Origin: Sistotremastrum niveocremeum HHB9708
Lineage: Eukaryota; Basidiomycota; Agaricomycetes; Sistotremastrales; Sistotremastraceae
Direction: 5' to 3'
Length of the DNA: 20,767 bases
NCBI GenBank assembly: GCA_001630475.1
Contig: KV419398.1
Span: forward strand, 12,517-33,283
A program made the translations under genes and the position numbers. Numbering within the stretch: the stretch's first letter is position 1; each line of letters begins with the position of its first letter. Positions 6,521-20,767 of this stretch are shown here, piece by piece. The notes below the pieces were generated by a model, which ran no database searches, was not told the origin of the DNA, and saw only the letters and a list, made by a program, of their open reading frames with translations.

Positions 6521-8803
6521 ATGAGTGTAGTAACGAGAAGAACGAGCGAGGGTAATCTCCGTCTCGTAAGTTCTTTACTTGTATGGCAGACTAGGGAAAA
6601 GAGTAACAATCGACAACCGATCCAGCCCAAAGCCTCGCACCTCCCTCCTGCCTTTTCTTCTTCGTCCCTTCCACATCTCCCTCCTACCAATCAAACTACA
6701 ATCTATCAAGATCAATCGCCATCACTAGGAGGACTTCAACCCCCCGTCCCTGCGTATCTATCTCATCATCCCCGTCTACGCGATCGAGGACCTCCGAAGA
6801 GTTCACCTCTAACCGGTCCTTCGATATCGCATTCCCTATCAGGCGAGATTTCACTCAACGACTCGATGGACGATCTCCCTTCAGGCCACAGCACAGCCGA
6901 CGAATCCGGCGGTCCTTCAAGTAATAGTAGGAGTGAAAAGAGGATGAGTCGAGCTCGTCCAAATCGCATATCAGGCGTTCCTTCAAACTACACCTATTCC
7001 TCCCTCTCCCAACCCGGCTCTCGAGCCTCCTCCCCAGGACTCGACGAAATCGATCTCTCTCAATTCCCTCTTCCAAACTCATCCTCAGCTCGAAAAGATA
7101 AAGGAAAAGGCCGAGAGAGAGATTCAGTCGTCTTCTCAGACGACCTCCAAGCTTCCCTCTCTTCCCTTCGACCGCCGTCACCTTCGCCCTCAGGATCAGG
7201 GTCTCATTCGCCTTCGGGTGCATCATCCACCGCTCCCCGTCCCAAATCAATCCTCCGCACCTCCACATCCCAATACCCCCCTCCAAATCCCCTCTACGAC
7301 CCCCTCCCCTCCTCTTCCCCCTCCCCCTCTTCCCATCCCGCCCGTCGTCCAGGGCCAACTCCAATCCCTCCCCTCCCCACATATTCCAATCCCGATCCTT
7401 CATTCCATTACTCGAAGCAGGCACAGAAAGATGTACATGAGAACGGAGCTTGGTTGACGAGTACGAGTGCGCCGAGCTTTTCGAGGTTTAGGTTGAAGGG
7501 TGAGGGTGTTGTTATGCCTGTTAAAGCTCCTGTTGGGTATCGATCTCGTTCTTCTGGGGCGGGGGCGACCGGTAGGGAGCCGGGAGCAAATGTTGGCAGT
7601 GGAGGAGTGGGTGGGGGAGGTAGGAAGAGCGAGAGTGAAGTCTACACACGCGCAAGTGGAAGTGGTCTCAAGCGTACGGACACAAACAAAACCGCTCCCG
7701 CGCATCCATCACACTCTACCAAGGATAAGGAGGTCGACACATCCAAATCTTTGCGCTCAAGGTTGAGCATCCGCAGCGTCTCCGGTCTCGCATCACTTTC
7801 CCGCCATCGTGATACTCAGGCTTCAGCGGTGCCGCCTATTCCGACGGTTATTGTGACTCCTCATTCGCGTAGTGCCTCAATGGCAACAGTCGACGAAAAA
7901 CGATCATCACTTCTCTCTCCATCCTTCACACCTACTCTCGCACCTACTCCCTCTCATCCACTCCCTCACCCGCACGCAAACGGACACGCTCACGGAAATG
8001 GTAGTGCGGGTGGGATATTAGACTCAAGCGCAGAAGCGGAGTACTTTGCAGTACACACTCTCGAGCCTGTTCCTGAATCCATCAGCAGCTCTGGTCACCT
8101 GTCGAGGGGAAAGAAGGGGAGTAGTGGGAGTAGTAGCGTTGACATTACTGAACTTGGAGAACGGTCTACTCCCCCGCCGTTGTCTGGAGCTGGGGTTGGG
8201 AAGTCGACGAAGGCGATGACGATTAATGGGACGGTGAAAGATCCCAAGGAGAAGGATGGGAAGGAAGTGAAAGGGAGTTTGTTGGGGAGGACTAGGACGA
8301 TGTCTTTCTTCCGATCGAAATCTACCAAGACCCCTCGCGCTCCGGTCACCATTCCAGTAGTCGTACCTTCTATCCCGCCATCTTCAGGATCAACTCCGAC
8401 TCAGGCTTCGACTTCGGCGTCGAAGACGAAACCTATAACAGTCAAAGCTCCTTCCGAAAGCCATGCGCATACTCACCACACACATCGTCATCACCAACCC
8501 TCATCCGTCCCCCTCCCAACCGCAAACGGCACCGCAGTCCTGACCGATTCACTCCCATCTCCCAGCTCATCCATCGAATCCTCCGTCTCAGCCTCATCCA
8601 TATCGCCTTCGATGGCTTCTTCGCTCGCTGCGTCTAGTACGAGCGTCGTATCACCTCCTGTTCTTTCCAAGGTGGATCCTATTAGCACTATTAGCGCCGT
8701 CGGGGGTGGAGAGAACAAGGATGTGGGGACTGGTGCGAGTATGAGTGTGAGTGGGAAGAAGGGATTTGGATTTGGGGGCAAGATCTGGAAGAGGGTGTTC
8801 TGA
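6521..8803 (+). CDS. large Ser/Pro-rich disordered protein, 760 residues, function unknown
   Basis: An uninterrupted frame of 760 codons, the longest in the window, with codon use strongly biased to coding. The start is the first ATG of the frame, in the context GAGGATGAG. The protein is almost entirely low-complexity: Ser, Pro, Thr and Gly dominate, with runs such as SPSPSGSGSHSPSG, PPLPTYSNPDP and a His cluster HAHTHHTHRHHQ near residues 648-660. Short islands that look ordered or regulated are RPKSILRTSTS (about 240-250), SKSLRSRLSIRSVSG (about 407-421), GRTRTMSFFRSKSTK (about 590-604) and the basic aromatic end GFGFGGKIWKRVF. Arg-x-x-Ser sites are common, suggesting phosphorylation. There is no signal peptide, membrane segment or catalytic motif that I can see. 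Fungal scaffold or signalling proteins can look like this, but I do not recognise the family. An early GTAAGT..GCAG pair (about 6568-6591) is too short to be an intron. Confidence 0.85.
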   Translation: MSVVTRRTSEGNLRLVSSLLVWQTREKSNNRQPIQPKASHLPPAFSSSSLPHLPPTNQTTIYQDQSPSLGGLQPPVPAYLSHHPRLRDRGPPKSSPLTGPSISHSLSGEISLNDSMDDLPSGHSTADESGGPSSNSRSEKRMSRARPNRISGVPSNYTYSSLSQPGSRASSPGLDEIDLSQFPLPNSSSARKDKGKGRERDSVVFSDDLQASLSSLRPPSPSPSGSGSHSPSGASSTAPRPKSILRTSTSQYPPPNPLYDPLPSSSPSPSSHPARRPGPTPIPPLPTYSNPDPSFHYSKQAQKDVHENGAWLTSTSAPSFSRFRLKGEGVVMPVKAPVGYRSRSSGAGATGREPGANVGSGGVGGGGRKSESEVYTRASGSGLKRTDTNKTAPAHPSHSTKDKEVDTSKSLRSRLSIRSVSGLASLSRHRDTQASAVPPIPTVIVTPHSRSASMATVDEKRSSLLSPSFTPTLAPTPSHPLPHPHANGHAHGNGSAGGILDSSAEAEYFAVHTLEPVPESISSSGHLSRGKKGSSGSSSVDITELGERSTPPPLSGAGVGKSTKAMTINGTVKDPKEKDGKEVKGSLLGRTRTMSFFRSKSTKTPRAPVTIPVVVPSIPPSSGSTPTQASTSASKTKPITVKAPSESHAHTHHTHRHHQPSSVPLPTANGTAVLTDSLPSPSSSIESSVSASSISPSMASSLAASSTSVVSPPVLSKVDPISTISAVGGGENKDVGTGASMSVSGKKGFGFGGKIWKRVF

Positions 8804-10563: not shown

Positions 10564-11753
10564 ATGTCAAGCCTCATCTCTGGAAACGACCAACGATTCC
10601 TACCTATCTCTTGGGTTCAGGACCAAGTTGTTCAGGACACCACATTCGCATTCGACGACGCGGATCTCGTCATTCACTCGGCAGATCATGTTCGCTTCAA
10701 GGTCCATAAACTCATAATGAGCATGCTCTCCGACGTCTTCAAAGATATGATTACTCTTGATCATATCAACAATAACTCGCATCGCGAGAACCAGAGCTAG
10801 ATCCTGGATACGAGTAGGATCGAACATGTGGATATCACGGAAAGAAGTGAAATAGTCCGTTTCGTCCTTCGATCGGCGTACCACCTTCCGATCCCCACAA
10901 TTCCTACTCTTGATCAGCTCTCAGACATCTTGATAATGCTCGACAAATACCAAATGCACCGTCTCCGCGAATTAGCTCAGAACTTCATCTTAGGAACAAT
11001 AAACCTCGAAGAGAACCCACTGCGACATTATATTCTCGCAAGGGACCATAACTTGACGAGGTTACGAAAAGCAGTCTTGCCTCTCATCGGCGCATTGGAT
11101 CTTCACGCCTACATGACCTCCACCGATTTACAGGTTCCCAACGATTTGCGGGTGTTTCCTTTTCAGGACTACCATAAACTCATTTTCTTCGCAAAAAATA
11201 GCGGGCGAATAAGATTCCATTACTCGTTCGAGTGGCTAGACTGCCGGTTGCAGTTTATGGGGTGAAATGCAAGGACAAGCCTGCTTGGAACCGTTACACT
11301 GACGGACCTCACACTCATTTGGATCCTTCCAGATGTTGCTCTTGGAAGGCATACCTCGCGGCGGCTGAAGAAGAGGTCAAGACAGCAAGTCACAAGGATA
11401 TCTTACGGCCAGAGCTAAGAGTCCAGGTCGCGATGAAATCACAGTGTTCCGATGCGATGCACTGGCTGATGGAAGAATGTAGAGAGATGGTTGATGGGGT
11501 AAGGAAGGCAGTCAAGGATGTTCCGTGGGATTACGAAGAGGAATACGAAAAGTACGATGTTTTCACTTGCTACAACAGCTCCGTACTTATGCGAATACCA
11601 CTGAAGAGTCCATGGTTCGGGCATCCAGAAGAAATAGGAGTCCTTGTGAAGTATTGTGATTTCCGTCAATTTTTTATTGTATCACGGGGAGTGAGGATGA
11701 TTGGTGACGAGACGCAACGCCATGAGTGTTATGCAAGTATCAATCGGAAATGA
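10564..11753 (+). pseudogene. BTB/POZ domain gene, disrupted by a stop codon and a frameshift
   Basis: The frame from ATG 10564 encodes a BTB/POZ start (FAFDDADLVIHSADHVRFKV, then HKLIMSMLSDVFKDM) closely matching the paralogues at 12158 and 13832. A single in-frame TAG at 10798-10800 interrupts it, and the same frame continues at once through the rest of the BTB fold (HVDITERS, RFVLRSAYHLP, LSDILIMLDKYQM). Near 11200-11215, after the conserved DYHKL block, the frame shifts by the equivalent of a one-base loss. Homology resumes in the frame ending at the TGA at 11751-11753, with the conserved CCSWKAYLAAAEEEV and DILRPELRV blocks. No GT..AG intron can remove the TAG. BTB domains normally mediate dimerisation or binding to Cullin-3; agaricomycetes carry many. 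Two independent lesions argue for a pseudogene rather than an error, though sequencing mistakes cannot be excluded. Confidence 0.8.
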
Positions 11754-12157
11754 CAGCGATGTACGAGTATAATATCAGCAATGCATTCGTGTGGAATCGA
11801 ATGAAAATCGGAGGGAGCGACGTTCAAGGCCTGAGGTGTAACAATTCAACTTATTATAATATGACCTTATTCTTCTCGACGCGATGAAGAACAATGAATC
11901 GACACTTGATGACTTCTTCCTTACGGTCCAAGCTCTACACTATACCTCGAATGGAGAAAGCGACCTCGACTTATGTTTTTCGGGTTATGGTTTTCTCAAG
12001 CTACGAATAAATAAATTCTTACAGATAGGACGGCCATGCATGATTACACCGGATCGATTCGACGTTAAAACGTATCGAGGTGATGATGCCTTCCGACGAT
12101 TTTCTATTTGTCGCTTGCATCGAGACCATGGATCCTTGAATATCATTTGTCTTAGTA
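11754..12157. other. convergent intergenic region between two BTB genes
   Basis: This stretch holds the 3' flanks of the plus-strand BTB pseudogene and the minus-strand BTB gene. The 3' end of the minus-strand gene shows a possible GTTAGT donor at its final codons (12162 downward), so its transcript may be spliced further into this region; I could not identify a following exon. The plus-strand frame at 11884-12189 has no recognisable content. Nothing else seen. Confidence 0.3.
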
Positions 12158-13126
12158 CTAACCTCGCGTTTCAGGAGAGAATAGAATAACAGACTTTCTA
12201 TAGTCCTCTTCGTATTCCCATGGAATTTTCTTGGCCTCGAGCCTAACTTTCTCCAAGTCCCCCGCGCAATGCCGCAAAAGCCACATTGTAGCATTTGGGC
12301 ACTTCGATTCTATGGCGACTCTGATCCGCAGCTCGGGTCGCAGGATATCTCTATGGCTGGAGGTATTGACCTCCTGACGAGCTGCGGTGAGGTATTGCTC
12401 CCAAGAGCAACATTTAGAAAGATATCCTCGAAGATTGTTCTTATTAGGGCATTGAACCGAGAGGAGTATGGGATCCAGTTCGATGTTTTCAACCAAAGCT
12501 AGAATCCAGCTAGCCCTGCGTTTCGTGAAATAAAGTAATCTGTGATAGTCTCGGAATGAGAGTGTTCCCACTACTGCAGGTACCTTCATTCCGGGATTCG
12601 TTACGTGGGCCAAGAGATCCAAAGCGCAAACGTGGGGCAATGCCGCTTGTTTTAGTCTCGGCAGGTTATATTCTCGGGCGCGAATATAATACCACAGCGG
12701 GTTTGTCTCAAGGTTCATGTTCAATAGGATGAAGTTCTGAACCGAGTTGCTGAGATGCTGCATGTGGTACTTGTCGAGCATTACCAGAATATCTGAGAGC
12801 TGGTCGAGAGTCGGGGATGATAGTGTGGTGAGAGGAAGATGATACGCCATTCGAAGGACGAAATTGAGTGTATCTGAACTCTCCGTGATCTGTACATGCT
12901 CCATCTCGTGCTCGCTCTCACAATGGATCCGCAGGCCCTTGTTGACTTGATCCAGAGCCGTCATATCCTTGAAGACGTCTGAGATCATCCTCATCAAGAG
13001 CTTATGGACTTTGAAGTGGATTCCATCTGCAGATCGGATGACAAGATCTGCGTCGTCAAATGCAAATGTCGGGTCCCAAACGATGGGTTGAGCTTGCTGT
13101 TCGATTTCGGCATTGGGATTGGACAT
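12158..13126 (-). CDS. BTB/POZ domain protein
   Basis: A 322-residue uninterrupted frame. Residues about 20-140 form a BTB/POZ domain: FAFDDADLVIRSADG, then FKVHKLLMRMISDVFKDM, then LDQLSDILVMLDKY. The remaining 180 residues carry the same C-terminal region as the two neighbours (FRDYHRLLYF, KCCSWEQYLTAARQEV, DILRPELRIRVAI, IPWEYEEDY), which I do not recognise as a named domain. BTB proteins usually act as dimers or as Cullin-3 adaptors; that role is inferred from the family. The start at 13126 matches the paralogues' N-termini. The frame ends soon after the conserved YEEDY block, about 55 residues earlier than the paralogues, and a GTTAGT lies at the last codons, so the true C-terminus may involve one more exon. 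It is inverted relative to the BTB genes on both sides. Confidence 0.85.
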   Translation of the reverse strand: MSNPNAEIEQQAQPIVWDPTFAFDDADLVIRSADGIHFKVHKLLMRMISDVFKDMTALDQVNKGLRIHCESEHEMEHVQITESSDTLNFVLRMAYHLPLTTLSSPTLDQLSDILVMLDKYHMQHLSNSVQNFILLNMNLETNPLWYYIRAREYNLPRLKQAALPHVCALDLLAHVTNPGMKVPAVVGTLSFRDYHRLLYFTKRRASWILALVENIELDPILLSVQCPNKNNLRGYLSKCCSWEQYLTAARQEVNTSSHRDILRPELRIRVAIESKCPNATMWLLRHCAGDLEKVRLEAKKIPWEYEEDYRKSVILFSPETRG

Positions 13127-13831
13127 GAAGCTGTAGCAGTGGAAACATGAGCTATAGCTGTATAGGATAGAAACGTCAGAAAACTAGCAACTTACATTCA
13201 GAGCTGCGTACAAGGCGGTGGACGACAAGAGCTCCTATGCGTCGGACCGAGTGTTACAGGCGCTACATGTCTGATGTGAAGGAACGCTCGGCGAACGCCG
13301 AAGACGAAGACAACATTCGTCATTGTTCACACTATAAGAGCCCATTGGACTTGGAGTCTCGGCGGCGCATCGCATTCACATACCGCATAGTGAATGACTG
13401 AACATTTAGACCCGAGATAATCGTGACTCATTTCAAGCTCCATTCTTCCCAGCTGCCTGTTTCTTGTGCCTGTTAGATTAATTTAAATGTAAAGGCTTCG
13501 CCATGTGCAATAATTTGCTTCATGACGTACATATTTTCTCGTGAGAAGCCTCGGCCCCGTACAGATATTGCGGAAGTGTTATGATCCTATCGCATTGCAG
13601 ATACTTGAGGAATATCGAGGACCCTTCGTAGCTTGATTTATTTAATATAAGACTGAACACGGAACTGAGAAAACGTGTTTATGAGCGGCATCTCCCGCAT
13701 ATCATTACTCTCCAGTTCTTTTCACTGTCCATGTAACCCTTGCTCCAGGCTTAGGGCTCTTGTATCCGACCGCCAACTGTACGTTCGTCCTTTCCGTCCG
13801 TATTCGATGCTCACTACAATACTGGGTCTAG
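13127..13831. promoter_or_regulatory. divergent promoter region between two BTB genes
   Basis: These 705 bp separate the minus-strand BTB gene from the plus-strand one and must carry both promoters. A TATA-like stretch, TATTTAATATAAG, lies at 13639-13651, about 180 bp before the plus-strand ATG. Just after it, GCGGCATCTCCCGCA (13685-13699) also occurs upstream of the BTB pseudogene (near 10401). The last 60 bp before the two start codons are also alike, including ACAGTACGCTC versus ACTGTACGTTC and ATACTGG near the ATG. The leader was therefore duplicated with the gene. Confidence 0.45.
13131..13195 (-). other. predicted intron in the 5' leader of the minus-strand BTB gene
   Basis: On the minus strand GTAAGT at 13195 and CTACAG ending at 13131 bound 65 nt, immediately before CTTC and the ATG at 13126. 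A TTCTGAC branch-like motif lies inside, and a second possible acceptor (ATACAG) follows it. The size fits the other introns in the window. Confidence 0.5.
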
Positions 13832-14980
13832 ATGTCTTCCACCAACAGTGAAACCAATCACCCAATCCACCGCACGAAATTCGCCTTCGCCGACGCAGAT
13901 CTTGTCATTCAGACAGCGGACAACCAGCGATTCAAAGTCCATAAATCCGTGATGAGCATGTTCTCGGACGTATTCAAGGACATGTTAGCCCTGGATCAAG
14001 TCAACAACAGAAAGCCGAATGACAGTGACAGCGAGAGTGACAGCGAGAGTAAGGTGGAACACGTCGAGATCACCGAGAGGAGTTACACATTCCGTTTCGT
14101 CCTTCGATTGACATACCACCTCCCAATCTCTACTCTGCCCTCCCTGGATCAGCTCTCAGACATTATGGTGATGCTCGACAAGTACCAGATGAGCCGTCTC
14201 CACGAATCGGTCCAGAATTTCATTCTGGCGAACCTGAATCTTGAGGAGAACCCACTGCGGTATTATGCTCTTGCCAGGTCATACAACCTGACGAGAGTTA
14301 AACAAGCGGTATTGCCCCACGTTGATGCCCTGGATCTCCGGGCGTACACGACCAATACAGTTGTAAAGATACCCAAGGAGTTGCTGGAGATCTCTTTCCG
14401 AGACTATCATAAATTGCTGTTCTTCAAAAATCAGAGAGCCACCCGGATTTTAGCATTCATTGAACGGGCTCGACTGCCCACTCCAGTTTACGTCGTGAGG
14501 TGCAACTCTCAGTCAGCCAGGATCATCCATGAGACTGGTGGATCTGAATCTACTTTCAACCCCAATCGATGTTGCTCTTGGAAGTCGTACATTACAGCGG
14601 CGCGCGAAGAGGTTAGTACTGCCAACAATCAAGATATCTTGAGGCCAGAGTTGAGAGTCAAGGTGGCAATAAATTCGAAATGTCCTAATGCAATGCGTTG
14701 GCTTTTAGACGATTGCGGACGGATTTTCGATGAGGCGCAGAAGGCGGCCAAGGAGATCCCGTGGGAATACGAAGAGGAGTATGAAAAGTACGCTGATATC
14801 TCTTGCTCCATCAGCTCCGTACTGACTCAAATACCTCTGCAGCGTTCATGGTGTTGGCGCTCAGGAGGCTTAAGAGTTGTTGGGATTATCATGTTTTTTT
14901 TGCCAAGTCATGCGAGTCATCGGCTTGCGGTGTGGATGACGAGAAGCGAACGTTTCGAGGAGGCCATGATTCAGGAATGA
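13832..14980 (+). CDS. BTB/POZ domain protein
   Basis: A 382-residue frame with an N-terminal BTB/POZ domain (residues about 16-140: FAFADADLVIQTADNQ, then FKVHKSVMSMFSDVFKDM, then LDQLSDIMVMLDKYQM). The family-specific C-terminal region follows (FRDYHKLLFF, RCCSWKSYITAAREEV, DILRPELRVKVAI, IPWEYEEEYEKY). A Ser/Asp/Glu loop at residues about 64-73 comes from a tandem 12-bp unit (14027-14038 and 14039-14050) absent from the paralogues. The last 55 residues differ from the pseudogene's. After a run of eight T (14894-14901) an alternative frame gives a better match (FFxxS...DDE..R), so a small frameshift or a missed splice near the end is possible. The start is supported by its neighbour's N-terminus and by a duplicated leader. 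Likely a dimerising or Cullin-3-binding adaptor, from family knowledge only. Confidence 0.85.
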   Translation: MSSTNSETNHPIHRTKFAFADADLVIQTADNQRFKVHKSVMSMFSDVFKDMLALDQVNNRKPNDSDSESDSESKVEHVEITERSYTFRFVLRLTYHLPISTLPSLDQLSDIMVMLDKYQMSRLHESVQNFILANLNLEENPLRYYALARSYNLTRVKQAVLPHVDALDLRAYTTNTVVKIPKELLEISFRDYHKLLFFKNQRATRILAFIERARLPTPVYVVRCNSQSARIIHETGGSESTFNPNRCCSWKSYITAAREEVSTANNQDILRPELRVKVAINSKCPNAMRWLLDDCGRIFDEAQKAAKEIPWEYEEEYEKYADISCSISSVLTQIPLQRSWCWRSGGLRVVGIIMFFLPSHASHRLAVWMTRSERFEEAMIQE

Positions 14981-15221
14981 CACAATTATATATCAGCAGT
15001 GTGTTTATACGACATCGGATAGACTAGGGGGGGAGATTCGAAAGCTGAGGTATAACAAGTCGGTTGATCCAATGGTGAACGTTGAACGTTGATCCCACGA
15101 CGTTGCAACGTGTCTTTGTTCCGAGATCCGCCTCCGAGATGCCCCTCAAAGTTTTCAATCTCCGCTTTCATTCATCCAGTAGCGACGCTCGGTGCTCTAT
15201 TCTCAGCTGGATCGTTCCTCG
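14981..15221. other. short spacer between the BTB gene and the copia LTR
   Basis: No gene is visible. It contains the small repeat GAACGTTGAACGTTGAT near 15077 and ends at the presumed copia insertion point. The five bases before the LTR, CCTCG at 15217-15221, would be the left target duplication. Confidence 0.3.
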
Positions 15222-15491
15222 TGTTGGACGACGAGCCACTACGGCAATCCCCGGAGTAGCGGATATAGCGGAGATACGACTTGTGGGTTGCCCGGGGTGC
15301 TGAGGTCGGACACCGGGACGGACTATGCAGCAGTTACTCTATTTAGGATGTTCCGATGTAGTATATTAGCGCATACCGGATGTCCGGAATGGGTAGAGGT
15401 TCTACCTATCCATTGACCGGACATCCAGGTTAGTCTACATAATATTATTCAGAGGTTCTACCTATCCATTGACCGGACATCCAGCTTGACA
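15222..15491 (+). repeat. 5' long terminal repeat of a Ty1/copia-like retrotransposon
   Basis: The sequence starts TGTTGGAC and ends TTGACA, the TG..CA form of copia LTRs, and is followed at once by a primer-binding site and gag. About 270 bp is a normal fungal copia LTR length. A hairpin-forming inverted repeat lies at about 15378-15426 (arms GGATGTCCGG and CCGGACATCC). A 34-bp direct repeat is present at 15395-15428 and 15451-15484. No second LTR lies in the window, so the boundaries rest on motif position and not on alignment. Confidence 0.65.
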
Positions 15492-15508: not shown

Positions 15509-15662
15509 TCTCGCTGTGAAATACGATCAATAAGAACTCTCTGGACGCTCAAAAAATTTTCACTCTCGCAAAACTCGATTATATTCTCATTACTCCTAAC
15601 TATTTCTCCTATCACTATCCACTCTCTTAAACCCCGCCTTACGACCCTCATTCGCACAAAAA

Positions 15663-16118
15663 ATGTCAACAGAGACCGACGACCGATCTACGTACGCTGC
15701 CGGACCCAAGGTTCCTAATCTGGTCCGTGCGAAGGGGAACGAGCCGTCGAATTTTCACACATGGAAGCTTCAACTCAAGGCGGTGTATCAGGAAAAGAAG
15801 TTGTGGGATGTTGTCACTGGGAAAGAGAAATCGAACATTCCGGTATTGGTGAAGAGCAAAACCATACCTGTTCAGATCGACGGTGTAATGAGAGAGGCGA
15901 AGACAATCGGGAACGAGGCTGAATATGCTCAAGCGGTAGCCGACAACGATGCCTGGGTTCAAAAGGATCGATCAGCCTGGCGAATACTCCTCTCGTGCCT
16001 CGACGCTGACAGTATCACTTACGTCGACGACTGCCCCACCACTGCCATCGCATGGTCTCGCCTATTCTCGTACTTCTCCGCAATAAGCAGCCGAGAGAGT
16101 GGTGCAATACTGTACTAA
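15663..16118 (+). pseudogene. Ty1/copia gag, truncated
   Basis: The frame begins at ATG 15663, 155 bp after the primer-binding site. It shows the copia Gag pattern (UBN2/DUF4219 type): NFHTWKLQLKAVYQEKKLWD at residues about 31-50, and later a KDRSAWRILLSCLD block followed by TAIAWSRLF. In copia, Gag assembles virus-like particles in the cytoplasm. The frame stops at 16118, around residue 151, before the zinc knuckle, and no protease, integrase or reverse transcriptase follows. The sequence past about 16100 belongs instead to a DNA transposon, so the retroelement was cut short by that insertion or by recombination. The rest may lie beyond the transposon's right end, outside this window. Confidence 0.7.
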
Positions 16119-16496
16119 AACAACCATTGCGGAGCAGGGGGGGACAAGGGACAACGAAATCTACCTTGCGGTAACGCGGTCGGACGCGTGGGGACAGGGG
16201 ACAATGAGATTTTCATGCGGATCGGCTTTCAGTACGCCGAGACGCCGGGACAAACAAACCTTTGGGTGCCGAGGTGCCGGCCCTTCACAACAACAACAAT
16301 GGCAAACACAAGTCGTCTCTCAGCCTCAAGTCTTTGTTGTTCCGTCGCCAGTGGCACGGTGGCATGAACTCAGTATATAATGTAATAATAACATGATATT
16401 TTTCTTTCAACCTCCACTTCACTGCATTGCTCGGTGCGGTGAACTTCGAAGTTTGAACGATCGACATCGACTGAATCAACCACCTAACCTCTCACT
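16119..16496 (+). promoter_or_regulatory. left subterminal repeats and promoter of the protease-transposase element
   Basis: Two degenerate copies of a 31-32 bp unit occur at 16140-16171 and 16190-16220 (GGGGACAaGGGACAAcGA-type start, TGCGG end), typical of transposase-binding subterminal repeats. A TATA box, TATATAA at 16374-16380, lies 117 bp before the ATG at 16497. The exact left terminus could not be fixed because the right terminus is outside the window; it probably falls between 16085 and 16140, where copia gag homology stops. Confidence 0.5.
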
Positions 16497-19400
16497 ATGG
16501 CTGACTTCGCTATCCCAGCTGAGATCAGGGCAGCCTTGTTGCTTGATCGTCAGTCCTCCGTTCATGACCTGCTTGCCATCCAACGTGTTCCACAAGTCTT
16601 TGACACGGCCCTTCCACTGCCACCCTTCAGCCACTTCCTCACCACCGACGAGCCCAACCAATCCATACACGACCTACTCGCTCTACTTCCCACACTTCCA
16701 ATTCCATCGACAACCACGGTCCAACGTTTGAGGCAAGCACTTCAGAAAGAATTAGAACAAAACAACACAATGAACACAAAATCAATTGTACCCGCTCATC
16801 TCGCTCTCGACATGGTGGTTCGCCTGCCTCTGTTCGTGCTTTCCTATTGGGGTGAGACACATCTCATTCGCGACAATCGCGGGAAATGGAACACGGCCAT
16901 CCAGTGGGCTAATACAAAGGTCAAACAAGCGAAGAAAAAGGGACATACAAACATACCTTGGGCCCACTTCATGCAGCAACTCTCCAAGCTGCAGTGGCAA
17001 GGTTACGTGCGAGGACCCGATGGATCGAAAGGGAAAGCAGTCCTTTTGACAGACTTTCTCAGCGAAGAGTGGCTTAGCGGCTCACATATATCGCAACTCA
17101 CCGAACTCGTCCGGCTCAGCATCGATCGAGAGAGGGGATCCCGGTCGTTGCGAAGTGTGATCGTGGAGCTGGAATTCTTCGAAAACCTTGTCGACGCATA
17201 TCAAAATCCGACCACGGTCAACAAGAAAGTACTCGAGCGTTTACAAAGTCTACGAAAGGAATTCAGGAATGATGAGGAAGACAAGCAGAAGACATACGAG
17301 ACGTTGGGTGGCGTGATGCATGTGGACGGGAATCACTTCACGACATGTGTTGTTGAGGTCGGCACTGGTGTCATCCTCTACGGAGATTCGAATGGACATG
17401 CAATCCCTGAGATTCATCGTCAGGCTTTGGAGTGGTGGATCAAATTGGACTCACCTGATACCGTTGTGTCTGTTGTTCAACTTCCTATTGCGGTTCAAGA
17501 CGATGGCTTCTCCTGCGGCATTCTCGCGTTCAACGCTCTGATGTGCCGATTCTGTCCGGATTCGTCCATGCTGTATGATGGATCAAACCGGCACGAATTG
17601 ACCTGTGCACGTGTTAAAATCTGCGATGACCTTTTGAAGATGACTTTGGACTTCGTACGTCGAGAAGTCAATACGTTGTGCATGCAACTGACGTACCACG
17701 TAGATGCCTGATTCGGCTCAACAACCGTCCACACCGTCTATGCCCTCGTCATCTTCACCGGATCCTCCATCGTCCTTGACTCCAAGTGCAGACGAGTCCT
17801 CACCCGAGCTTGCGAATGCTTGTGATACAAATGATGATGGTGATGTCAATGATGCTGCATCTGAACCCGCGGAATCCATAGTGGATGATTCGAGTTCAAC
17901 CAGTTTGCCATCGGATACATCGGATTCGGAGGACTCAAGTTCAGAATCAGACTCAGACGACAGTGATCATGACGAATTACAACCTCCCGTGAAGAAACGT
18001 CGCGCGGTCGTGGATGATTCTTATAGTGAACGAGAAGATCCGGGCCCCAAGATCTTGTCAATTCCCGCAGACAACAAAAAAAAAGGGGGGCTCACATCAA
18101 AGTTCGGCCTTGACCAATTGCACCAGGCGAAGCTCTCATTCGTGAAGGTCTCCGACGAGGAGGCTGAGGCACAGAGAAAGCGAGACACGGCCCGTTTCAG
18201 AGAAACTCAGAAGCGACACCAGCGCGCTGCAGATGAACTTGCTGAGGCGAAGAAGCTTGCTAAGCGGGAGAAGGAACGTCTGAAGAAAGAGCGTCAGCGC
18301 ACGAAACGGAAGGAACTCGATAAGATTATGGGGATTCGTCACCCAAATGGTGACCTGGTCGAGACGAAGCGTAAGAAGGTCAGTTCCACGTCACATAGGC
18401 CTGCATATCGCTGACTCACAAATATCTAGACACTGAAAGAACATGACGACTCGGTCAATCCTTCCGAAAGTGATAGACGACGAGCAGCAGAGGCCACGCG
18501 ACCTGGACGGCAACTGCGTCGAGAGCAAATGCTGGACCATAAGAAAGTTAAGAAGCCGTCAGGCCGTAAACAGAAGAGACAGATACCGGAAGACGACGCC
18601 AGACGACACAATTGGTGGCAGCCTGCCACTCTCATCATCATTGAAGATGCCATTCGAGAAGTCGGTCGGCCATGGTCTCCCACTGAGATTGTCAAGCGCT
18701 TGCAGGGGAAGAGCGAGAGCCTCTTTGCCGGCTTGTGGCCTCAACGTCTTTCGGAAGCGCGGGATATGACTGTAACGAGCCATTGGGAATGGAACGAGTC
18801 AACTAAGCGCAAGATAAAGAACGCCAATAAGCCTGCTGGGCATTCTACAAGAAAGCGAGTCCTGGTAAGTGAACCGTTCTGCCAGCCCGAAGATGGATCA
18901 CTCACGGATTGCACAGGAAGATTATCCCAAAGTCGAAACAGGGATACAAAAAGCATTCAAGTCTCTCCGCGAGACCGGAACAGCTCTCGATATCACTACG
19001 GCTCGCGGAATAATGATTGGCATCATCACGCGTCGGGCCCCCACAGTATTTCAGAAGAAGAATAAAAACGGAAAGCAATCATTCACCTGTACCCCAGCCT
19101 ACGTGCGGCGCTATCTTCATCGCATGAAATGGTCCCTCCGCCAGAGCACTCGAGCTGCACATAAATTTCCTGACGACGTGGACGAAGTCTTGAAGCAGGC
19201 CCATCAACGTATGGCAGCCGTTGTTCGCGAAGAGGAGATCCCGGATGGCGGGTTTATCGTTAATATCGATCAGACTCAAGTTGTATATGCCATGGGACCT
19301 GAGGGTACGTGGAATCAAAGAGGGGTCAAGCAAGTGAGCGTCACTGGCAAGGAGGAGAAACGTGCCTTCACCCTGGTCGTCGGAGTCTCGGCATCGGGAG

Positions 19401-20281
19401 ACGTGCTTCCGTTCCAGGCGATCTTTGCTGGCAAAACGGACGCATCTTGTCCATCCAAGAACTCACCATTCTACGCCAAAGCCATGGAATACGGATTCCA
19501 ATTCATCCCTTCTGGCATCTCTGGCAATTACTGGTCAAACCAACAAACCATGCGTCTCCTCATCATCCACATCGTCGCTCCTTATTTCTTCAAGCAACGC
19601 AAGCGAGTTGGCGACGACAGCCAGCCATGCATCTTGCAGCTGGATTGCTGGAGTGTTCATCGATCTGAAGAATTTCGAACCTGGATGCGAGAAAATTACC
19701 CATGGATCAGACTTCAGTACGTACCCGGCGGCTGCACTCCTCTTTTCCAACCTTGCGATGTCGCTATCCAAAAGCCTCTCAAACATGAAATCCAACGTCG
19801 AGCTCATGCATCCGTTGTTCAAGATGTCCTCCGACAACTGGACTCAGGAACCAAACCAAAGGATGTGAAGCCAAATCGGACAGTCGGGGTTTTGAGGAAT
19901 CGCTCCGTCGAGTGGATTGTTCATGGTTTCGAGGCGATCAACAATCCAACACTCGTGAAGAAGGTGCGTGTCCTCTTCTCATCGTAGCATTCATCACAGC
20001 TCATTAATTTACGCTTGCTGCAGTCCTTCGAGCTCTGCAAGGCCGGAGAGTTCAACCTGTCCTATGAGTCTCTCAATGGCGACGCTATGCGCAAAGTCCT
20101 TCGCGATCTCAAACGGACTGATCCAACCTACTACGCCACACTCACCACGCCATCCTCTCCTCCCATCGATGCCGATGCGACTCCCCCCGAAGATACTCAA
20201 GCCGAAGATGACCTCGCGGACGCAGCCGCCGACCTTCACACCCTGGACACGACTAGTGTTGCAAAATATGATATGATATGA
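16497..20281 (+). CDS. fused Ulp1-like protease and DDE_1 transposase of a DNA transposon
   Basis: Five exons join in phase 0: 16497-17654, 17704-18378, 18430-18864, 18917-19963 and 20024-20281, giving 1190 residues. Residues about 180-386 are a Ulp1/C48 cysteine protease: His280, Asp297, Gln334 and Cys340 (GNHFTTC, YGDSNG, VQDDGFSCG), with the His-Asp and Gln-Cys spacings of yeast Ulp1. Residues 387-611 are an acidic Ser/Asp stretch, a KKRR nuclear signal and a Lys/Glu coiled coil. Residues about 670-735 look like a helix-turn-helix (PWSPTEIVKRL). From about 757 comes a DDE_1 (pogo-like) transposase: Asp874 (NIDQTQ), Asp999 (LQLDCWSVHRSEEF) and Asp1037 (QPCDVAIQKP), the last two separated by 37 residues. 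The last nine codons and the stop derive wholly or partly from an inserted MITE, so the native tail is lost. The start ATG has A at -3. If the first intron is retained, the protease ends separately at 17711. The fusion is inferred from splice sites, not proven. Confidence 0.8.
17655..17703 (+). other. intron 1 joining protease and transposase reading frames
   Basis: 49 nt, donor GTACGT, branch-like ACTGAC 11-16 nt before the acceptor GTAG. It lies between codons on both sides. Retention leaves the protease frame open to a TGA at 17709-17711, which overlaps the first ATG of exon 2 (17704) by eight bases, ATGCCTGA. Confidence 0.65.
18379..18429 (+). other. intron 2 of the protease-transposase gene
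   Basis: 51 nt, donor GTCAGT, branch-like GCTGAC, acceptor TCTAG. Phase 0 on both sides. Retention would add 12 codons and a TGA. Confidence 0.75.
18865..18916 (+). other. intron 3 of the protease-transposase gene
   Basis: 52 nt, donor GTAAGT, acceptor CACAG, phase 0. It joins the helix-turn-helix-like exon to the transposase exon. Confidence 0.8.
19964..20023 (+). other. intron 4 of the protease-transposase gene
   Basis: 60 nt, donor GTGCGT, acceptor CTGCAG, phase 0. It joins the DDE_1 exon to an acidic C-terminal exon. Confidence 0.75.
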
Positions 20282-20767
20282 TATTTTACCCAAATTTTGG
20301 AATATCAATATCGATATCGATATCACAAATCCCAGAATCTTGGAAATATCATATCAATATCGCGATATCGATATTTTGTTTTCAAAATCAAAATATCATA
20401 TCGATTTAAATCGATTTTTATCACTTGTGCGATATAAATCAGTTTGATATCAGTTTTTATCAGTTTAAATTGCAATTTTTTCTCAAATCCTTCTGTAATC
20501 TACATATATCCTCCAGTATATCATGATATCATGGTACAGTGGTGCTATATCAGCCTCTACATACAGTTTCCAGTGATATCTGTGAGTGAGTGATGACCTC
20601 ATGGGAAGATTCAGCACCTGTGGGACCTGTGACGGAGGGTGATGTGGGTGACATCCGGTACCCAGAGGGTGGGAACTTGCCTATATATGAGAGATAACAC
20701 AGTATTATAGCATATAGGAGGCTATATATCACTTGGAAGGTGATATATACTGAGATATTGAGCCCCA
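20254..20767. mobile_element. second copy of the 745-bp hAT-like MITE, right end outside the window
   Basis: It starts TAGTGTTGCA at 20254 and aligns along its length with the element at 437-1181 in the same orientation. The GATAT-rich left part matches, as do the CTCAAATCCTTCTGTAATCT block (20482-20501), the CCCAGAGGGTGGGAA core (near 20661) and TGCCTATATATGAGA (20679-20693). About 220 bp of the right end should lie beyond the window. Its left flank, GACACGAC at 20246-20253, predicts the duplicated octamer. It interrupts the last coding exon of the protease-transposase gene. Non-coding. Confidence 0.85.

Follow-up and report, generated by a model that had tools for sequence, protein, structure and literature searches.

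Introduction

Yeast Ulp1 and the human SENPs are cellular enzymes without a transposase, and the Mutator elements that carry Ulp1 belong to another transposase superfamily than the one considered here. We analyzed a stretch of 20,767 nt of contig KV419398.1 (labeled C5) from Sistotremastrum niveocremeum HHB9708, referred to as the window, in which positions 16497-20281 are predicted to encode an Ulp1-type cysteine protease followed by a mariner/pogo-type transposase in one gene of a DNA transposon. An Ulp1-transposase fusion as such is already known, since Ginger1, in the accessible part of PMC2836005, likewise carries Ulp1 (or OTU) and a transposase in one protein. Ginger1 has Ulp1 at the C terminus, behind a Gypsy-integrase-like transposase, whereas the window family has it at the N terminus, ahead of a DDE_1/mariner-like core. 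The same portion of PMC2836005 cites Mutator elements of plants, hydra, and lancelet as carrying Ulp1, and there the role of Ulp1 domains in the transposition of unrelated DNA transposons is only suggested.

CryptonF and CryptonS of oomycetes, as presented in the accessible part of PMC3212892, are mobile elements with a C48 peptidase, as is the window family, but they use a tyrosine recombinase and not a DDE transposase, and the CryptonS peptidase is an additional protein. The pogo superfamily (Fot/Fot-like, Lemi, Tigger, and others) is described in the available text of PMC7386202 with proteins of 300-977 aa and, for Fot, a DD35D spacing. The window family is like it in the DDE_1 core, the triad of aspartates (DDD), the short inverted repeats, and the duplicated target, which in pogo is TA (or TAA/TAAA) and here is TA, but it differs in having an N-terminal Ulp1 protease, proteins of 1190-1352 aa, and a DD37D spacing, and in that the DNA-binding domains listed for pogo were undetected. 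The word protease is absent from the main text of PMC7386202, and an Ulp1 domain in a pogo/mariner transposase is undescribed in the accessible parts of PMC7386202, PMC2836005, PMC3212892, PMC10799480, and PMC10175614; PMC12730594 contains no occurrence of protease, peptidase, Mariner, pogo, Ulp, or SUMO. No report of this combination was found in the literature searched, outside which lie Repbase and most subscription papers, so that an earlier record may exist. Within that literature, Ulp1 joined to a pogo/mariner-type transposase is apparently new.

Results

Both domains are encoded by one predicted gene in every copy found

Joining the exons at 16497-17654, 17704-18378, 18430-18864, 18917-19963, and 20024-20281 (plus strand) gave a single frame of 1190 aa and confirmed the first-pass annotation of one spliced protein. 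The four introns (17655-17703, 18379-18429, 18865-18916, and 19964-20023, plus strand; 49, 51, 52, and 60 nt) are every one GT..AG and in phase 0. Exon 1 encodes the protease, exon 2 a poorly conserved linker that is first acidic and then basic, and exon 3 a presumed DNA-binding region preceding the catalytic core; exon 4 contains a helical start followed by the DDD core, and in exon 5 only 20024-20253 (plus strand) is homologous to the other copies.

A search of the 34.7-Mb genome (111 contigs) with the protease query resulted in eight matches at seven places: the window on C5, C9 twice, C42, C35 in two pieces, C110, and C43. These seven places also hold all 13 matches of the transposase query. 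We found that protease and transposase adjoin in the same order in all seven copies, as the first-pass annotation had proposed for the window gene; the family has at least this many copies, since the genome search scores the best candidates only. With both halves present in this order at six further places in the genome, the window gene reads as a real single fused gene, beyond chance.

The sister genes on C9, C42, C110, and C43 were modeled by hand, with splice sites picked by homology and frame, and encode predicted proteins of 1241, 1215, 1352, and 1308 aa, respectively, with 23-57% identity to the window gene in the protease and catalytic exons. All four introns recur in the window gene and the four sister genes, all in phase 0. 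The last residue before each intron lies at alignment columns 410/739/912/1267 in C5, C9, and C42, at 410/738/912/1267 in C110, and at 412/725/912/1267 in C43, although the exact columns count only in part as independent evidence, the splice sites having been chosen partly by homology. At the junction between protease and transposase, the raw sequence of every copy shows the GT/AG signals and an open frame on either side. A phase-0 intron (GTATGT..TTAG) is likewise present at this place in the decayed C35 copy. Related copies with clearly separate genes would have refuted the first-pass annotation, but the outcome was the opposite: six of six distinct copies keep a phase-0 junction intron.

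Relatives were also sought in collections of viral contigs (598 pattern stretches) and of bacterial and archaeal contigs (59), and none was confirmed; these collections are not fungal, and absence from them says little.

The N-terminal half resembles Ulp1-type cysteine proteases

The residues H280, D297, Q334, and C340 of the window protein were found at the positions given in the first-pass annotation, and they look intact when aligned with yeast Ulp1 (1euv). Comparison among the copies showed that this His-Asp-Gln-Cys tetrad is in order and invariant in all five genes. All four residues fall among the 32 invariant columns of exon 1, for which the chance probability is ~4e-5 on the assumption that invariant columns are scattered at random over 386 residues. 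Four of the five members matched Peptidase_C48 at E<=1 (best, 1e-9), and, when the genome was searched, the copies on C110 and C43, but not the window copy, were above the curated cut-off. These two copies account for two of the six Peptidase_C48 matches in the genome; the remaining four, on C14, C15, and C11, are presumably host genes.

A profile made from the five protease sequences retrieved yeast Ulp1 (1euv) with an E value of 4.2e-8 and with the catalytic residues aligned. The predicted structure of the protease, with a predicted local distance difference test score (pLDDT) of 72, had its best Foldseek matches among Ulp1/SENP-type enzymes, Ulp1 being first (E, 4.9e-7); yeast Ulp1 and the human SENPs thus have both the catalytic tetrad and the fold in common with the window family. 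These results suggest that exon 1 encodes an Ulp1-type cysteine protease with apparently intact catalytic residues, which may be active and specific for the small ubiquitin-like modifier (SUMO).

The C-terminal half resembles mariner/pogo-type transposases

The three-aspartate core anticipated for the window protein was located at D874, D999, and D1037. The three catalytic aspartates are invariant, with DD37D spacing, in all five genes, and all five members matched DDE_1 at E<=1 (best, 3.7e-9). All six DDE_1 matches in the genome, each above the cut-off, are copies of this transposon family. The best fold matches of the transposase model were Mos1 and Sleeping Beauty. The C-terminal half is therefore predicted to be a mariner/pogo-type DDD transposase of the DD37D class.

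Exon 3 of the five genes gave no match in Pfam except one unrelated weak one, which was not in the window copy. CENP-B_N, HTH_ABP1_N, HTH_Tnp_Tc5, BrkDBD, and HTH_psq were detected in neither exon 3 nor exon 4, although a diverged domain could escape such a search. Exon 4 starts with helices, and HTH_33 matched there weakly in the window copy only. The pogo-like label of the first-pass annotation accordingly holds in part: DDE_1, the DDD triad, and the TA target fit, but the spacing is DD37D instead of the DD35D of Fot, and the pogo DNA-binding domains were undetected. Membership in pogo, judged by these features and not by placement in a tree, is plausible but unproven.

Nonsynonymous differences are fewer than synonymous ones in all exons compared

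The proportions of nonsynonymous (pN) and synonymous (pS) differences were compared for six of the ten gene pairs, with exon 5 omitted in the three pairs that include C5. For C9/C42, pN/pS in exons 1-5 was 0.45 (pN, 0.36; pS, 0.80), 0.49, 0.38, 0.23, and 0.38, respectively, and the five further pairs gave 0.36 to 0.74; since synonymous sites are at or near saturation, all of these values compare pN with pS, and the ratio of substitution rates (dN/dS) is unmeasurable. pN was below pS in every exon comparison made.

Element ends, MITEs, and target site

The elements on C9, C42, C110, and C43 are ~4.5-4.8 kb long and are bounded on both sides by inverted repeats, with TA followed by CTGTAC.. in C9, C42, and C110 and by CTGTGC.. 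in C43; TA thus adjoins the ends of all four elements. In the window, the left end of the element (16110-16206, plus strand) starts with CTGTACTAAAACAACC and comprises ~97 bp common to the ends of miniature inverted-repeat transposable elements (MITEs). It is preceded by a TA target dinucleotide (16108-16109, unstranded), and the MITEs show an identical boundary. A left-end search with window DNA found 14 places, with matches starting at query positions 882-888 of 1040 (expected, 888), and six of these places are MITEs that were fetched as described below.

A terminal inverted repeat pattern matched 41 places in the genome, compared with 15 for the reversed control, and 15 MITE places were fetched from this list. 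Nine of them (L062-L070; 371-383 bp) have ends like those of C9, with 79-86% identity over ~94-122 bp, and six (L071-L076; 339-350 bp) have ends like those of the window element, with 77-85% identity over 95-97 bp. One MITE pair is 98.7% identical. Both MITE families are probably mobilized by this transposase family.

All 15 MITEs have TA at both ends, but TA belonged to the search pattern. In a test independent of this pattern, the flanks of each MITE were joined with a single TA and searched against the genome. Ungapped empty sites with one TA were found for four of the 15 MITEs, at eight places: L070 at C23, C17, and C16 (96-97%), L073 twice on C46 (93 and 80%), L072 at C6 (92%), and L063 at C30 and C38 (81 and 79%); no such site was found for the other 11. 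The empty sites with a single TA indicate that the MITEs insert at TA and duplicate it.

The two places on C9 are identical over 4378 bp and differ in their right flanks, indicating that the element moved or was copied recently. One of these copies starts at the contig end and thus is without its left end. Its right flank recurs element-free at ~C9:59810-60035, and the shared part begins exactly at the TA. The recurrence spans 226 bp (L022 4376-4601, L023 311-536), is identical and inverted, and lies ~2.7 kb upstream of the other C9 copy; it represents half an empty site.

State of the window copy and its surroundings

The frame and the domains of the window gene stood as first annotated, but the interval and the protein require revision at both ends. 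The element is larger than the interval, since its left end at 16110 lies upstream of 16497, and the last eight residues of the 1190-aa protein, SVAKYDMI, are read from a dispersed AT-rich repeat (20254 to the window's last position, 20767; unstranded) that is inserted in exon 5 and also gives the stop at 20281. This repeat matches 70 pieces of the genome, including the window's own, and 32 of them start at query positions 51-55, which correspond to window positions 20250-20254. The sister genes extend ~100 residues further, a tail that is missing from the window copy. Since exon 5 is cut at ~20254, this tail is missing, and the right end of the element was not found in the readable sequence, the window gene probably is not a complete working copy, though both domains look intact.

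Within the window the AT-rich repeat occurs at 437-869 and 20254-20740, beginning with TAGTGTTGCAAAA. On C41, two copies that are nearly identical to the one in the window lie face to face at 6668-7154 and 7681-8169, resembling the long inverted arms of a 1.5-kb element.

The window element is nested in a Copia-type retrotransposon. It breaks the start of a Copia-type gag gene (15660-16107, plus strand), in which Pfam DUF4219 is above and Retrotran_gag_2 just below the cut-off, and a Copia-type pol was found farther along. Upstream lies the presumed left long terminal repeat of this host element (15221-15491, plus strand), which is 100% identical over 271 bp to C5:39513-39783 and contains a 37-bp direct repeat (97%) at 15395-15431 and 15451-15487. 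Farther upstream, at 10630-14980, three related BTB/POZ-type genes or fragments stand in a row, one of them on the minus strand; Pfam BTB was above the cut-off in both that were tested.

Discussion

The family very probably has one five-exon gene, whose protein is made up of protease, linker, presumed DNA-binding region, and DDD core and which belongs to a cut-and-paste DNA transposon of the IS630-Tc1-mariner/pogo group; the window holds a nested, 3'-damaged copy of this transposon. This degree of confidence applies to the gene and the element and not to the role of the protease. The transposase part would bind the inverted repeats, excise the element, and insert it at TA. The protease part would travel along and take SUMO, or a modifier like it, off the transposase or off proteins present at the donor or target DNA, which would favor transposition or weaken SUMO-dependent repression or repair control. 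That the protease acts on SUMO or a relative of it at the site of transposition seems to us an even bet. We put forward slightly more tentatively that the family is an undescribed pogo/mariner-like lineage with an N-terminal deSUMOylase, whose complex, at the cut ends, may deSUMOylate itself or proteins of chromatin or repair and so counter SUMO-dependent control. SUMO-linked silencing, suggested as a target in the first-pass annotation, might be countered. The candidate explanation that the transposase is its own SUMO target through enriched psi-K-x-E sites was rejected, as the transposase parts of the five genes contain 2, 0, 2, 1, and 1 such sites, with no enrichment over shuffles.

Several observations weigh against a fused, SUMO-directed protease-transposase. 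The window copy alone scored 15 bits for Peptidase_C48 and 19.2 bits for DDE_1, below the Pfam cut-offs of 20.7 and 22 bits, and it is absent from the genome-wide matches to both families. The fold match of the protease is loose, with a root-mean-square deviation (rmsd) of 7.4 and a query template modeling score of 0.35 for the best match, and enzymes that cut NEDD8 or ubiquitin, as well as a poxvirus protease, also appear among the matches with this fold. The structural model of the transposase is weak (pLDDT, 62; rmsd, >13 for mariner-type matches), retroviral integrases appear lower in the list, and a sequence profile of exon 4 found no meaningful relative among PDB sequences. The saturation of synonymous sites limits the argument from selection. 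At the junction, we infer the splicing of intron 1 from its sequence signals; the fusion in C9, with its open 51-nt intron 1, is independent of splicing; for intron 1 of C110 more than one AG is possible, the acceptor having been picked by homology and frame; and Met codons are present in exon 2 of C110 and C43, so that the argument for fusion there rests on the intron.

It is highly improbable that the transposon has two separate genes, protease and then transposase, which an accident of open frames joined in the window copy. Such an arrangement would account for the exon 2 Met codons of C110 and C43, and in the window copy the protease frame stops at 17711 if intron 1 is retained, giving a 404-aa protease-only product, and the next frame starts with an ATG at 17704. 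The phase-0 GT..AG intron at the junction of all six distinct copies speaks against it, as does the C9 junction, whose 51-nt intron contains no stop and leaves the frame fused whether spliced or not. Moreover, exon 2 has no Met in C9 and C42, where the first one lies 247 and 229 residues past the junction, respectively, making a separate transposase gene untenable there. On these grounds the separate-gene explanation was rejected. The same intron might be retained in a regulated manner, yielding the protease alone alongside the fusion, with the protease also acting in trans. A stop lies within intron 1 in C42, C110, and C43 and shortly after it in the window copy, as this would require, but in C9 intron 1 is a multiple of three and open, so the two products would not separate; we consider regulated retention unlikely.

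The remaining alternatives accept the single fused gene and differ on what the protease does. Self-processing, which the first-pass annotation had raised, would have the protease cut the transposase loose from what precedes it, in the manner of a polyprotein, and the position of the protease before a long, poorly conserved linker would suit it. However, exons 2-3 of C42 contain no Gly-Gly, and the other four genes have none at a common place; because no common cleavage site was seen, self-cleavage is less likely, and with a site other than Gly-Gly still to be allowed for, we regard it as distinctly unlikely. Slightly less credible still is a passenger protease, picked up along with other sequence and without a role in transposition. 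Conservation is indeed lower in its exon than in the catalytic one (mean column identity, 49% versus 65%), but the tetrad is invariant across genes that are saturated or nearly so at synonymous sites, and in exon 1 pN remains lower than pS.

The combination of protease and transposase in one gene is probably useful to the element, because the arrangement persists in several highly dissimilar copies within one genome. With it, Ulp1-transposase fusions reach the mariner/pogo group, where the protease sits at the end opposite to that in Ginger1. With both predicted activities bound in one protein across deeply diverged genes, and with signs of recent mobility, this family would allow a direct test of what a transposon-borne SUMO protease does.

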